Source: Streptomyces himastatinicus ATCC 53653 (GTDB lineage: Bacteria > Actinomycetota > Actinomycetes > Streptomycetales > Streptomycetaceae). Taken from it: a DNA stretch of 64,000 bases. Each line of letters begins with the position of its first letter. Position 1 is the stretch's first letter. Location: the NCBI RefSeq assembly GCF_000158915.1, contig NZ_GG657754.1, positions 7,100,220 through 7,164,219 of the forward strand, given 5' to 3'. The notes beneath the pieces are model-generated. The model had not been told where the DNA came from. It did no database searches and saw only the letters and a list, made by a program, of their open reading frames with translations. The position numbers and the translations under genes were made by a program. Of this stretch, positions 10,316 to 59,009 are shown one piece after another.

Positions 10316-13279
10316 ATGGCTTCCTCGACCACCACGGTCACCTCCACCCCGAACCCCTCCGTCCCCGGTCAGGCCGTCACCTACACCGCGACCGTCGCCT
10401 CTGTTCCACCGGGCGCGTTCACCCCGACCGGCACGGTCGCCTTCACCCTGGACGCCGGTGCGCCGGTGACCGTCGCGGTCGACGCCGCCGGACAGGCCTC
10501 CTTCACCGACAGCTCCCTGTCCGTGGGCTCCCACACGGTGACGGCCACCTACAGCGGCGACGCCAACCTGGACCCGTCGACGGGCACCAGCATCCAGCAG
10601 GTCAACCAGGGGGCGACGACCACCACCCTGACGGCCTCGCCCAACCCCGCGGTCTGCGGCGAGGCGGTGACCCTGACGGCGACCGTGGCGGCCACCCCGC
10701 CCGCCTCGGGGGTCCCGACCGGCACGGTGACGTTCATCATCAGCGCCGACGGACCGGCCCTCACCGCGCCCCTCGACGCGACCGGCCAGGCGTCCGTCAC
10801 GGTCGCCGATCTGGATGTGGGCACCCATCTGGCGGTGGCCTTCTACGGCGGGGACACCGAGTTCTCCGCGTCCAACTCGGCCCTGGTCCCGGTGACGGTG
10901 AACCAGGCGTCCTCGACCACCGCCTTCACCGCCACCCCCGACCCGTCGGTGTGCGGCGAGACGGTGACGCTGTGCGCGACGGTGACCGTGGAAGAGCCGG
11001 GGACCTGTACGCCCACCGGGACGGTGACCTTCACCGTCCCCGGAGGCCCGACCCTCACCGCCCCGCTCGACGCGACCGGCCAAGCCTGTGTGACGACCGA
11101 CGAACTGCCCCTGGGCACCAACTCGGTGACCGCCACCTACTCCGGTGACACCGGTGTCGCGGGCTCCTCGAGCACCGGGACGGTCACCGTCGACCAGGCC
11201 ACGTCCTCGACCGCCGTCACGGTGACGCCGGCCACGTCCGTATGCGGCGAACCGGTGACCCTCTGCGCGCAGGTGACGGTGGCTCCGCCCAGCGACTGCA
11301 CCCCGATCGGCACGGTGACGTTCGTGGTCTCGGGCGGTCCGACGCTGACCGCGCCGGTGGATGCCACCGGCCAGGCGTGCGTGACCACCAGCGCCATCCC
11401 CGTCGGCACCCACACCGTGACCGCCACCTATGGGGGCGACTCCGGAATCGCGGGTTCCACGGGCACCGCGAGCGTGACGGTGAATCAGGCGGCCTCCACC
11501 ACCACCGTCACCAGCCCCGCCCCCGGCGCCTGCGGCGAGTCCGTGACGCTCTGCGCCCAGGTGACGACCGTCCCGCCCGGCACCTGCCCCCCGACCGGCA
11601 CGGTGACGTTCGTGGTCTCGGGCGGTCCGACGCTGACGGCCACGGTGGACGGCACGGGCATGGCGTGCGTGACCACCAGCGCCATCCCGGTCGGCACCCA
11701 CACCGTGACCGCCACCTACTCCGGTGACACCGGAGTCGCGGGCTCCTCGGGCACCGGGACGGTCACCGTCAACCCGGGCACGTCCACGCTGACGGTCTCG
11801 GCCACACCGAGCCCGTCCGTCTGCGGCGAGGCGGTGACCATCTGCGCCCAGGTGACGGTGGCTCCGCCCAGCACCTGCGTCCCGACCGGCACCGTCACGT
11901 TCGTGATCACCGGCGGTCCGACGCTCACGGCGACGCTCGACGCCACCGGCCAGGCGTGCGTGACCACCACGGCGGTCCCGGTCGGCACCCACACGATCAC
12001 CGCCACCTACGCGGGCGACTCCGGCGTCGGGGGCTCGACGGGCACGACCTCGGTGACGTTGAACCCGGCGTCGTCCACCACCACGGTCTCGGTCACGCCC
12101 TCCCCGACGGTCTGCGGCGAGTCCGTCCTGCTGTGTGCCCAGGTGACCACCGTGCTACCCGGCACCTGCACCCCGACCGGCACGGTGACCTTCGTGGTCT
12201 CCGGCGGCCCGACCCTCACGGCCACGGTCAACGCCAGCGGCCAGGCGTGCGTCTCCACCACCGCCATCCCGGTCGGCAGCCACACCGTGACGGCGACCTA
12301 CGGCGGAGGCGGCGGCGTCGCGCCCTCGACGGGCACCGGGACGGCCAACGTCAACCAGGCCAGCTCCACGACTGCGCTGACGATCACGCCCAACCCGTCC
12401 GTGTGCAGCCAGTCGGTGACGCTCTGCGCCCAGGTGACGACCACGGCGCCGGGCACCTGCACCCCGACCGGCACCGTCACCTTCGTGATCAGCGGCGGTC
12501 CCACCCTGACCGGCACGCTCAACGCCGGCGGCCAGGCGTGCGTCACCACCAGCGCGCTGGGCGTGGGAGCACACACGGTCACGGCCACCTACGGGGGCAG
12601 CACGGGCGTCGTGGGCTCGTCGGCCACCGGTACGGCCACGGTGAACACGGCCAGTACCACCACCACGATCACCTCCACCCCCAACCCCTCCGCCCCCGGC
12701 CAGACGGTGACCTTCACCGCCACCGTGGCCCCGGTGGCGCCCGCGACCGGCACCCCGACCGGCACCGTGACGTTCGTGATCAGCGGCGGTCCGACCCTCG
12801 TCGGAACGCTCAACGCGGCCGGACAGACGACCGTGAGCACCAACGCGCTCACCACCGGCTCCCACACGGTCACCGCCACCTACAGCGGTGACAGCTGCTT
12901 CAACTCGTCGACCGCGACGCTCACCCAGACCGTGGCGGGCTCGACGACCACCACCCTGACCGCCACCCCGGCCGTCATCCGGCTGCGGATGAACGGCCAG
13001 CTCGTCATCCCCACCCTGAGCGCCACGCTCAAGAACCAGGCCAACAACCCCGTCCCCGGCCAGACGATCGTCTTCACGGCCAACACCGTGCTGGGCCCGA
13101 TCGCCCTGGGCAGCGCGGTCACCAACGCCTCCGGCGTTGCGACGCTGACCAATGTCACCGTCCCGCCCTCGGTCCTGACCGCCAGTACGTACACCGCCAC
13201 CTTCGCGGGTGGTCCGGGCCTCAGCCCGGCCACGGCGTCGGCCTCGCTGACGTTCCAGCCGCTGCCGCTGCTCCCGTAG
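10316..13279 (+). CDS. Tandem Ig-like (Big_3_5-type) repeat protein without signal peptide
   Basis: A 987-residue protein made of nine consecutive ~97-residue Ig-like repeats and a divergent tenth one. Each repeat follows the plan (S/T)TTT...P.PSV.G..VT...V, then PTGTVTF, GGPTLT, G.A.V and HTVTATY.GD, the pattern of the bacterial Ig-like Big_3_5 family. Repeats 3-8 each contain four conserved cysteines (CGE or CSQ, LCA, a TC before the PTGTV strand, and QAC), whereas repeats 1 and 9 lack them and repeat 2 keeps one. The N-terminus starts straight into repeat 1: no signal peptide, Tat motif, LPXTG or transmembrane anchor is visible. Such domains are usually extracellular adhesive or structural modules, so how this protein leaves the cell, if it does, is unexplained. 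A perfect terminator follows. Confidence 0.8.
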   Translation: MASSTTTVTSTPNPSVPGQAVTYTATVASVPPGAFTPTGTVAFTLDAGAPVTVAVDAAGQASFTDSSLSVGSHTVTATYSGDANLDPSTGTSIQQVNQGATTTTLTASPNPAVCGEAVTLTATVAATPPASGVPTGTVTFIISADGPALTAPLDATGQASVTVADLDVGTHLAVAFYGGDTEFSASNSALVPVTVNQASSTTAFTATPDPSVCGETVTLCATVTVEEPGTCTPTGTVTFTVPGGPTLTAPLDATGQACVTTDELPLGTNSVTATYSGDTGVAGSSSTGTVTVDQATSSTAVTVTPATSVCGEPVTLCAQVTVAPPSDCTPIGTVTFVVSGGPTLTAPVDATGQACVTTSAIPVGTHTVTATYGGDSGIAGSTGTASVTVNQAASTTTVTSPAPGACGESVTLCAQVTTVPPGTCPPTGTVTFVVSGGPTLTATVDGTGMACVTTSAIPVGTHTVTATYSGDTGVAGSSGTGTVTVNPGTSTLTVSATPSPSVCGEAVTICAQVTVAPPSTCVPTGTVTFVITGGPTLTATLDATGQACVTTTAVPVGTHTITATYAGDSGVGGSTGTTSVTLNPASSTTTVSVTPSPTVCGESVLLCAQVTTVLPGTCTPTGTVTFVVSGGPTLTATVNASGQACVSTTAIPVGSHTVTATYGGGGGVAPSTGTGTANVNQASSTTALTITPNPSVCSQSVTLCAQVTTTAPGTCTPTGTVTFVISGGPTLTGTLNAGGQACVTTSALGVGAHTVTATYGGSTGVVGSSATGTATVNTASTTTTITSTPNPSAPGQTVTFTATVAPVAPATGTPTGTVTFVISGGPTLVGTLNAAGQTTVSTNALTTGSHTVTATYSGDSCFNSSTATLTQTVAGSTTTTLTATPAVIRLRMNGQLVIPTLSATLKNQANNPVPGQTIVFTANTVLGPIALGSAVTNASGVATLTNVTVPPSVLTASTYTATFAGGPGLSPATASASLTFQPLPLLP

Positions 13280-56310: not shown

Positions 56311-56377
56311 GGGGGTGCTCCTTGCGGGGACTCGGGGGTTCCATACGGGTGCGTGCGTTGGCAAGCGTGGCAGATGC

Positions 56378-56403
56378 GATGACAGATTTCAATATCTGTC
56401 ATC
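56378..56403. promoter_or_regulatory. Perfect 10+10 operator ahead of the AKR/tetR operon
   Basis: GATGACAGAT-TTCAAT-ATCTGTCATC is a perfect inverted repeat. The centre is about 80 bases upstream of the AKR start, in the expected place for TetR control. Its right arm (TGTCATC) is also the first unit of the tandem array described next. Confidence 0.8.
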
Positions 56404-56544
56404 GCCCACCTGTCATCGTCTGTCTGTCATCCGCTGGATGTCATCGCCCGCCTGATATCGCCCGTCTGCTAGCGCCCGCCTGATATCGCCTGCCCGTTAC
56501 CGCTCGCCCGTCATCGCCTGTCTGCCATCGCCCGTCTGCTCTCC
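56397..56544. repeat. 14-bp tandem-repeat array sharing the operator half-site
   Basis: Ten and a half direct copies of a 14-bp unit with consensus TGTCATCGCCCGCC run from 56397 to 56544 between the AKR operator and the end of the MFS gene. Units diverge (for example TGATATCGCCCGTC, TGCTAGCGCCCGCC), with the first TGTCATC identical to the operator arm. Length 148 bases; no coding potential seen. It might be a sponge for the TetR regulator or simple slippage expansion. Confidence 0.8.
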
Positions 56545-56556
56545 CCACGGGGCCGC

Positions 56557-58029
56557 TCACGCCACCACGCGCGGCAGCCGCAGGCTCATCAGCACCGTCA
56601 GGGCGACCGCCGCGAGCTGTGCCGCGAGCGTGATCACCAGTGCGTCGGCCATCCCCGCCGACGGCGCCAGCGAGAGGAACAGCGTGCCGAGCGTGGCGAC
56701 GCCCAGCGCCAGCGAGGACTGCTGGGTCGTGACCATCACGCCGCTGCCCACCCCGGCCCGCTCGCTCGGCACCTCGGACAGCACGATCCGAATCAGCACC
56801 GGCAGCTGTAGCCCCTGCCCGAAACCGGCCAGCGCGACCCCCGGCAGCAGCCCCGCCAGTGACAGGTCCGGCCAGTCGCGCGCCACGGCCAGCATCAGCA
56901 GACCGAGGCCCACCGCCTGGAGCAGCCCGCCGGCGGTCACCACGCGACTGCCGTACCGGCCGACCAGGCGCGGCCCCATGAGCGAGGCCACGAAGAAGGC
57001 GGCGGCCATCGGCGCCAGCGCCAGTCCGGCCGCGACCGGCCCGTAGCGCAGGCCCTGTTGCAGGGCGACCGCGATGACGAACATGAAGCCGCCGAAGCCG
57101 ATCGAGAACGGCACCAGCATCGGCAGCCCGCGCCGCAGCCCCCGCAGCGCGAACAGGCTCGGCGGCAGCAGCGGAGTGGCACCGGCCCGGTCGGCGCGGC
57201 GCTCGATCACGTAGAACGCCGCCGCAGCGAAGGGGAACACGCCCAGCAGCAGCCAGGTCCACAGTGGCCAGCCCGCCGCCCGTCCCTCGGTCAGCGGCAC
57301 CATCAGCGTGATCAGCGAGACGGCCAGCAGCACCGTGCCCGGCACGTCCACCGGCGCGGGCCGGTCCGAGCGGGTCTCGGGCACCGTACGGAGGGCCAGC
57401 ACCAGGCCGATCAGCGCGACCGGGACGTTGACCAGGAAGACCGCGCGCCACCCGGTGCCCGCGATGTCCGCGGCCACCAGCACCCCGCCCAGGATCTGCC
57501 CCGCCACCATGGCGAGACCGGCCGTCGCGCCGTACATGCTCAGCGCGCGGGCGCGGTGCGAGCCGCTGGTGGAGGAGTGGATGGTGGCGAGCACCTGCGG
57601 CAGCATCAGCGCCGCCGCGGCGCCCTGTGCGACGCGCGCCGCGACCAGGCTCCATGCGTCAGGGGCGAGGCCGCAGGCCAGCGAGGTCACCCCGAAGGCC
57701 GCCATTCCGGCGAGGAAGAGCCGTCGCCGCCCGAAGGAGTCGCCCAGCCGTCCGCCGAGGACGAGCAGTACCGCGTACGCGACGCCGTACCCCGCGACGA
57801 TCAGTTCCAGGAGGGCCGGGCCCGCGTCCAGGTCGCGGTCCATGGTGGGCAGGGCCACGTTGACGATGAAGAAGTCGATCAGAGGAAGCGCCGCCCCGAG
57901 CAGCAGGGTGAACAGCCCCGGGCCGCTCAGCGTCCCACCGGGCGTCCCGCCATGCGGCGTCGTGGCGGTCCCCCGGGCGGCCGGTGCGGCCGGGGCGGCG
58001 GTTCTGGCGCGAATTTCTGTTTCGGTCAC
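56557..58029 (-). CDS. MFS transporter (DHA2/EmrB-QacA type)
   Basis: A 490-residue transporter with 14 predicted spans. GLFTLLLGAALPLIDFFIVNVALPTM opens the fold, and GGRLGDSFGRRRLFLAG is motif A between spans 2 and 3. Proton-driven drug export is the usual role. It is divergent from the XRE/MmyB regulator gene 101 bases away, and the palindrome at 58060-58085 lies between them, so this gene is a probable target. Confidence 0.92.
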   Translation of the reverse strand: MTETEIRARTAAPAAPAARGTATTPHGGTPGGTLSGPGLFTLLLGAALPLIDFFIVNVALPTMDRDLDAGPALLELIVAGYGVAYAVLLVLGGRLGDSFGRRRLFLAGMAAFGVTSLACGLAPDAWSLVAARVAQGAAAALMLPQVLATIHSSTSGSHRARALSMYGATAGLAMVAGQILGGVLVAADIAGTGWRAVFLVNVPVALIGLVLALRTVPETRSDRPAPVDVPGTVLLAVSLITLMVPLTEGRAAGWPLWTWLLLGVFPFAAAAFYVIERRADRAGATPLLPPSLFALRGLRRGLPMLVPFSIGFGGFMFVIAVALQQGLRYGPVAAGLALAPMAAAFFVASLMGPRLVGRYGSRVVTAGGLLQAVGLGLLMLAVARDWPDLSLAGLLPGVALAGFGQGLQLPVLIRIVLSEVPSERAGVGSGVMVTTQQSSLALGVATLGTLFLSLAPSAGMADALVITLAAQLAAVALTVLMSLRLPRVVA

Positions 58030-58130: not shown

Positions 58131-59009
58131 ATGACCATCACGGTGCAGCGTGCCACGGCCACCGGCGGGGCCGAGATCAGACGGACCGAGCTGGCGGCCT
58201 TTCTGCGCAGCCGCCGGGAGCGGATCACCCCCGAGCAGGTGGGGCTGCCCCGCGGCCGCCGCCGGCGGACCCCCGGGCTGCGCCGCGAGGAGGTCGCCCA
58301 GCTCTCCACGGTGGGCGTCACCTGGTACACCTGGCTGGAGCAGGCCCGGGACATCCATGTCTCGGTGCAGGTCCTCGACGCCATCGCCCGCGCGCTGCTG
58401 CTGGACCGCAGCGAGCGCGCGCACCTCTTCGCCCTCGCCGGGGAGATCGATCCGACCCCCGGGAGCGAGTGCTCCGGGGTACCGCAGTCGCTCCAGGTGA
58501 TGCTGGAGCAGCTGGAGCCGTTCCCGGCGTGCGTGCAGAACGCCCGGTTCGACCTCCTCGCGTACAACCGCACCTACCGGCTGCTGATGTGCGACCTGGA
58601 CCTGCTGCCGCCGGAGGACCGCAACTGCATGTGGCTGGCCTTCACCAACGAGGACTGGTGCGCGAGCCTGGTCGAGCGGGACGAGACGATCCGGATCATG
58701 GCCGCCAAGTTCCGCGCCGCGATGGCCGAACATGTCGCCGAGCCCGCCTGGAAGGCGCTGCTGCGGCGGCTGGAGGAGGCCTCACCGGAGTTCCGGGAGA
58801 TCTGGGCGCGCCATGAGGTGCTGCGGCCCAGCGACAAGATCAAGGTCTTCCGGCAGTCGACGGTGGGCGTGCTGCGGCTGACCTCGAACAGTCTGTGGAC
58901 CGGCCCCAACCAGGGGCCCAAGCTGCTCACGTACACCCCGGTGGACACCGAGACCCGTGAGCGTCTGGAGCGGCTTCACGCCCTCGCGCTCGAATTGGCC
59001 GAGGTCTGA
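58131..59009 (+). CDS. XRE-family regulator with MmyB-like ligand-binding domain
   Basis: A 292-residue protein. N-terminal HTH: ELAAFLRSRRERITPEQVGLP, then TPGLRREEVAQLSTVGVTWYTWLEQARDIHVSVQVLDAIARAL. The C-terminal ~160 residues (PACVQNARFDLLAYNRTYRLL; PSDKIKVFRQSTVGVLRLTSNSLW) match the MmyB-like domain, which binds fatty-acid-like ligands. Such regulators usually control a neighbouring divergent oxidoreductase or exporter, here one of two MFS genes. ATG 58131 follows GGAG. Confidence 0.92.
   Translation: MTITVQRATATGGAEIRRTELAAFLRSRRERITPEQVGLPRGRRRRTPGLRREEVAQLSTVGVTWYTWLEQARDIHVSVQVLDAIARALLLDRSERAHLFALAGEIDPTPGSECSGVPQSLQVMLEQLEPFPACVQNARFDLLAYNRTYRLLMCDLDLLPPEDRNCMWLAFTNEDWCASLVERDETIRIMAAKFRAAMAEHVAEPAWKALLRRLEEASPEFREIWARHEVLRPSDKIKVFRQSTVGVLRLTSNSLWTGPNQGPKLLTYTPVDTETRERLERLHALALELAEV

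Follow-up and report, generated by a model that had tools for sequence, protein, structure and literature searches.

The 14-bp tandem array that lies upstream of an aldo/keto reductase (AKR)-tetR operon in Streptomyces himastatinicus ATCC 53653 is best explained as a product of slippage that began within a composite TetR operator, and this account, in which the long array is mainly passive, we consider probable. The array was studied within a 64,000-nucleotide stretch (the window) of the 11.0 Mb genome and at the operators of orthologous loci. Slippage as the process, binding by TetR and the lack of an effect of the distal units are points that we infer from the sequence.

On the minus strand the window reads, in order, an MFS permease gene (58029-56557), the array, the operator with its promoter, the AKR gene (56310-55291) and tetR (55283-54696). 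The AKR gene, first in the operon, encodes a protein matching PF00248 (E 1.7e-65). The second gene, tetR, encodes a putative repressor of 195 aa that carries, above the Pfam cut-offs, both the TetR_N DNA-binding domain (PF00440, E 5.7e-12) and the TetR C-terminal domain TetR_C_27 (PF17935, E 3.6e-37). Its AlphaFold model (pLDDT 91.7) agrees in fold with TetR structures, the best PDB match being TetR lmo2814 (4hku), and its top named sequence matches, at 75-77% identity, are from Streptomyces violaceusniger, Actinacidiphila oryziradicis, S. iranensis and S. sabulosicollis. We considered whether TetR might control the MFS gene from the AKR operator and ruled this out: the whole order is read on the minus strand, so that the MFS gene is placed upstream, is read in the direction of the operator and is not a downstream target. 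An MmyB-like (MLTR_LBD) regulator is encoded at window positions 58131-59009, divergently from the permease gene (56557-58029), and is more likely than TetR to regulate the permease.

The dyad ahead of the AKR-tetR operon, GCGATGACAGAT-TTCAAT-ATCTGTCATCGC (56376-56405), is perfect, as the original prediction had it, with a measured architecture of 12+6+12 in place of the 10+10 arms first proposed. Its 22-bp core, TGACAGAT-TTCAAT-ATCTGTCA (56380..56401), was matched, spacer included and with at most 2 mismatches, in 238 of 392 genus genomes, and the reversed-pattern control gave 0. As defined across species the dyad extends to 36 bp (56373..56408), comprising the core and 7-bp outer arms. With loci treated regardless of relatedness, the symmetry of the outer arms at each locus exceeded that of shuffled pairings at positions 1-7 (z 5.2-11.0), and from position 8 on z fell between -2.3 and 1.9. 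Left and right outer arms tend, at a given locus, to be inverted copies, and their sequence varies by lineage (GCTG/GCTG, GTCC/GTCC, TCGC/TCGC, TTCG/TTCG and others); in the window dyad the symmetry covers only the inner 4 of the 7 outer-arm bp.

The orthologous operators were drawn from 300 loci, from which we removed L001 and L002 (copies of the window), 39 near-duplicates, and 15 loci that lacked an operator by pattern or had short flanks, leaving 244 with the window included. The sample was built by fetching 100 of the listed core matches, others being already in the set and a few listed ones, including second sites in a genome, being left out; a further 40 regions were requested by the position of a TetR match, and 38 were returned. 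A set of 243 loci, defined by a slightly different operator pattern and the requirement of an AKR frame, served for the AKR tree, the column table and the array counts. At 243 non-redundant loci an AKR reading frame followed the operator within 1.3 kb on its downstream side, and at one more (L224) it was absent.

The dyad overlaps a promoter. A -35 hexamer, TTGAAA (56387..56392, minus strand), falls within the operator spacer, which is largely conserved in orthologous operators, and a -10 hexamer, CACGCT (56364..56369, minus strand), stands 17 bp from it. The latter conforms to a conserved CANNNT in which the A and the T were each present in 242 of 243 loci; a generic consensus scan did not detect it, and a scan of the locus for a generic sigma-70 consensus or a terminator found neither. 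Because TTGAAA sits in the spacer with CANNNT 17 bp on, we infer that TetR would occupy the -35 hexamer and the spacer. A conserved palindrome with symmetric outer arms, lying over the promoter of the operon that encodes the regulator and overlapping the conserved -35 and -10 elements, looks like the TetR operator that the original prediction supposed, and on these features the dyad is almost surely the operator of AKR-tetR.

The recognition helix of the repressor (SHGSVYRHF) is nearly invariant across 80 named loci. At L076 (Kitasatospora sp. MAA19, operator about 3805) the core arms are symmetrically changed to GAACA/TGTTC, and this is the sole locus among the 80 in which S replaces G in SHGSVYRHF. 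The joint change may represent a natural specificity switch and, as a single instance, ties the operator to TetR indirectly. Helix variants with T for S (L037, L038, L040, L101 and L102) did not cleanly track operator changes, and several operators (e.g. L065 and L099) differ in the core with no change in the helix. These core departures count against the operator assignment, as does the failure to find the core by pattern in 4 of the 38 regions fetched via a strong TetR match (L280, L291, L294 and L298).

The array itself occupies 56396..56549 (plus strand) as eleven in-register units of 14 bp, unit 1 being the operator's own right arm; TRF reported 56396-56538 with period 14, 10.2 copies, 72% matches and the consensus CTGTCATCGCCCGC. 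The claim that 14-bp repeats run from the right arm to the MFS gene held, with eleven units where ten and a half had been counted, and arm and repeat do share sequence, over a longer stretch than the TGTCATC first named. Lag-14 identity across the array is 0.71, and for other 154-bp stretches of the window it averages 0.28 (sd 0.04) with a maximum of 0.43, so the array is not a product of chance.

TGTCA is present in units 1-4 only. Units 8 and 9 read CGTTA and CGTCA, and units 5-7, 10 and 11 read TGATA, TGCTA, TGATA, TGCCA and TGCTC, none of which matches YGTYA; the looser YGNYA fits all of the first ten units, so the sequence of the distal units is not random. The half-site showed no preferential conservation within the window array, its columns 2-6 retaining 42 of 55 consensus letters and the other columns 78 of 99. 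A division of the 14-bp unit into two heptads, each representing the one half-site, was rejected, given that in the window TGTCA is possible in alternate heptads only, the other heptad holding the outer arm TCGCC.

Extra half-sites recur beside orthologous operators. Relative to the right half-site, YGTYA in direct orientation was found at +7 in 103 and at +14 in 81 of the 244 operators, and in the window the in-phase copy at +14, TGTCA, lies inside unit 2 of the array (56411..56415, plus strand). When sorted by phase, offsets 12-139 held 145 YGTYA on the 7-bp lattice vs 20-38 in the other phases, and half-sites in the opposite orientation gave no comparable peak at +7 or +14 over the 244 operators. 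The lattice excess is small past offset 40 (36 vs 17-30 per phase), and column conservation to the right of the operator stops at offset 18. To the left, TRACR occurs at -7 in 150 of 244 operators, and an off-lattice peak at -12 (TRACR in 77 and TGACA in 76 of 244) overlaps the -10 region.

A chained half-site is absent from 102 of 243 operators, and 18 of 244 loci have at least three half-sites on the lattice, the corresponding counts for the six other phases being 0, 0, 1, 0, 1 and 0. On-lattice counts reach 16 in L006, 9 in L284 and 5 in L130, and the units of the two longest foreign arrays, L006 and L284, retain YGTYA well. The 13 loci with at least three chained half-sites amount to 13 parsimony changes on a quick AKR tree and are therefore scattered; the tree was built on no more than 150 aa of AKR, and gain and loss are indistinguishable on it. 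So read, the operator is a composite one: many species add one or two direct half-sites upstream of the promoter, and others add none. Both the operator and its composite half-sites are well supported. Direct half-sites on a 7-bp lattice (+7, +14) beside the orthologous operators are new here. Their recurrence in many species, and the building of the array from the half-site of the operator, support these parts of the original prediction.

The long array is a different matter. It is absent at the operators of the relatives that were read (L004, L023, L025, L026, L113, L115, L134 and L138), all of which have the core, and units 3-11 have no counterpart in them; L004 and L138 (from G055 and G422) retain AGTCATC at +14. 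By eye, the gap from the core to the MFS stop is 22 bp in G055 vs 155 bp in the window. In a family draw of 394 genomes, none of the 393 others holds the first junction of the array (23 bp, at most 2 mismatches); the closest relatives were not part of that draw and were read directly. The array is thus private to its lineage and its flanks are common to relatives, as befits a slippage repeat.

Tandem arrays are present within 160 bp upstream of 41 of the 243 operators, window included, and their consensus unit contains YGTYA in 15 and lacks it in 26. Of the 10 arrays beginning in the first 15 bases of the searched stretch, 9 hold YGTYA, and of the remaining 31, 6 do so. At the junction between the operator and upstream sequence, L023 and L025 have 9-, 17- and 12-bp arrays of unrelated sequence, and L115 has a weaker 9-bp array that falls below threshold. 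Since the closest relatives read lack it, its distal units lack TGTCA and the junction carries differently composed arrays in other species, the suggestion that the long array titrates TetR or tunes its cooperativity found no support and stays a hypothesis; slippage, offered in the original prediction as the alternative, explains the array itself better, given relatives without an array and the 26 of 41 junction arrays without a half-site.

In the mechanism that we favor, the dyad would be the autoregulatory operator of the AKR-tetR operon, and TetR bound to it would, to judge from the anatomy of the site, cover the -35 hexamer and spacer and block RNA polymerase. The operator would be composite, joining a dyad of up to 36 bp to direct half-sites of the same sequence at +7 and/or +14 in many species. 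The right arm, TGTCATC, and its in-phase copy 14 bp on would offer replication a short direct-repeat pair, and slippage between these two half-sites probably multiplied the 14-bp unit until about eleven copies were reached, which widened the distance from operator to MFS gene from about 22 bp, as in the relative G055, to 155 bp. Slippage between the right and the +14 half-sites fits because the array unit equals the distance between them; generic slippage, seeded by any repeat at hand, would give junction arrays with varied units. The +14 unit and possibly units 3-4 still resemble TetR half-sites; the near copies may bind TetR, and the distal units, which would have drifted, are probably passive.

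Some observations count against slippage as the whole explanation. Among the same 80 loci, 5 period-7/14 arrays lie next to the operator (5.0 kb noncoding; these 5 counted irrespective of the coding mask) vs 8 in 129.7 kb of other noncoding sequence; in addition, YGTYA is kept in L006 and L284 and YGNYA in ten window units, and because of this density and retention a partial role in binding is possible. The half-site arrays also share a single lattice and occur at scattered points of the AKR tree, a pattern that selection could give as well. A working extended operator would account for these features, with TetR nucleating on the dyad and loading cooperatively along the 7/14-bp direct half-sites, and so sharpening repression or titrating TetR; the spacing would present three helix faces, with the same face returning each 21 or 42 bp. 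The in-phase copies that many species have at +7 and +14, the recurrent on-lattice arrays of 16, 9 and 5 half-sites and the enrichment of 7/14-bp arrays beside the AKR operator all speak for it, and binding of multiple TetR dimers is known, according to the accessible portions of the sources, from the EthR octamer (PMC5403819) and from CprB and QacR as dimers of dimers (PMC4150764). However, conservation ends at +18 with little lattice excess past offset 40, a chained half-site is missing altogether from 102 of 243 operators, YGTYA is absent from window units 5-7, 10 and 11 and from the units of 26 of 41 junction arrays, and we consider an extended operator of this kind rather unlikely. A more elaborate scheme, in which TetR would load from the dyad (up to 36 bp) along the direct half-sites as a helical filament running upstream, lineages would tune repression by array length, and operator-plus-array decoys would have spread to other junctions in this genome, strikes us as improbable.

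It was also conceivable that the array is one of a family of dispersed intergenic CYGNYA heptad repeats that spread over gene junctions independently of TetR. Six other seemingly intergenic sites in the genome carry such repeats (pattern matches 26+6 vs control 0+1). At three of these, C2:6338999 (L302), 7225900 (L303) and 4937169 (L304), an in-phase heptad array abuts a TGACAG-N10-CTGTCA-like palindrome (exact in two cases and with one arm change in the third; N10 mostly AT-rich), and the other three, C2:2431882 (L305), 1824691 (L321) and 6742220 (L332), lie between neighbouring genes. The palindrome and heptads at L302 stand between two convergent genes, and so do not mark an obvious promoter, and are missing from the six relatives examined, and pattern-matching arrays occur in 115 of 150 genus genomes. 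Arrays of like appearance at other sites weaken a TetR-specific role. Nevertheless, at the AKR site the operator itself anchors the lattice in many species, the 14-bp unit of the window includes the outer arm TCGCC and is unlike the plain heptads elsewhere, and the reversed control pattern also matches many genomes, which leaves an origin among dispersed heptads quite improbable. Less credible by far is a role in the upstream MFS transcript, through all-frame stop codons, a 3' end or termination, in place of one for TetR. The intact half-sites read TGACA in the MFS sense and thus contain TGA, and by eye the stop codon of a gene falls within or beside the first heptad at L302, L303 and L305; on the other hand, the scan found no terminator-like site, several units lack a stop triplet, and the L006 array lies, by eye, between divergent genes, so that all-frame stops have no support there.

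Among known systems, QacR binds with a geometry of two offset dimers, into which the 17-bp spacing of the TGACA/TGTCA half-sites of the window would by analogy fit, the size of the palindrome being compatible as well. Operators for TetR-family dimers of dimers measure 28 bp for QacR, 32 bp for CgmR, 31 bp for Ms6564 and 22 bp for CprB, as listed in the available excerpt of PMC4150764. Like these, the present site pairs a long palindrome with a gene for a TetR-fold repressor that is predicted to bind it; unlike them, a dyad of the window type reaches up to 36 bp and is followed outward by direct half-sites on a 7-bp lattice. EthR of Mycobacterium occupies one intergenic operator as an octamer (PMC5403819, in its accessible part). 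The likeness would be that of several TetR dimers on one extended operator adjoining the regulated gene, and the difference is that the octamer is a feature of EthR and the tandem unit array one of the window. We know of no tandem unit array in the EthR operator.

BldC of Streptomyces is a MerR-like protein that forms multimers on direct repeats with an AT-rich motif. A variable number of direct repeats at a promoter is common to both cases, but the protein family and the motif differ, and the head-to-tail multimers belong to BldC. SARPs are activators of antibiotic clusters that act at spaced heptamers; their sites resemble the present one in having 7-bp direct repeats and differ from it in that the repeats here are contiguous half-sites of a repressor operator. 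Such 7-bp direct repeats in Streptomyces promoters are described in the accessible part of PMC5930380. An ordinary slippage minisatellite would likewise be missing from relatives, degenerate (72% matches here) and accompanied, in other species, by differently composed arrays at the corresponding junction; the window array departs from that type in having been seeded, on our reading, by a functional operator arm. A text search for the operator sequence in print, with most subscription papers outside its reach, found no paper, and among titles and the opening lines of abstracts on TetR operators, half-site arrays, heptamers and AKR-TetR pairs in Streptomyces none describes the operator, which is no proof of its being undescribed.

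If the heptad-phased half-sites bind TetR, tandem repeat number would provide a graded and evolvable setting of repressor occupancy, natural operators spanning 0 to sixteen extra half-sites. If they do not, a functional palindrome would be seeding minisatellites that mimic regulatory arrays, which calls for caution in motif-based reading of intergenic sequence.

Several smaller observations accompany these results. An extra CYGNYA heptad match at 5920375 appears to be coding, and a fourth palindrome, exact and at C2:2425215, has no array and seems to lie within coding sequence. By eye, the L332 array is flanked by a ribokinase-like start on one side and a solute-binding-protein-like 3' end on the other. 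At the junction equivalent to L302, at least 3 of 6 relatives (L389, L390 and L392) carry, by eye, their own unrelated tandem repeats, which also speaks for slippage. In these relatives (L389-L394) the junction is located downstream of a DJ-1/PfpI-like gene, and the repeats there suggest that repeats turn over fast at gene ends in the clade. Elsewhere in the window, about 7 copies of a 291-bp tandem repeat (10890-12893) probably encode the repeated domains of a large protein.
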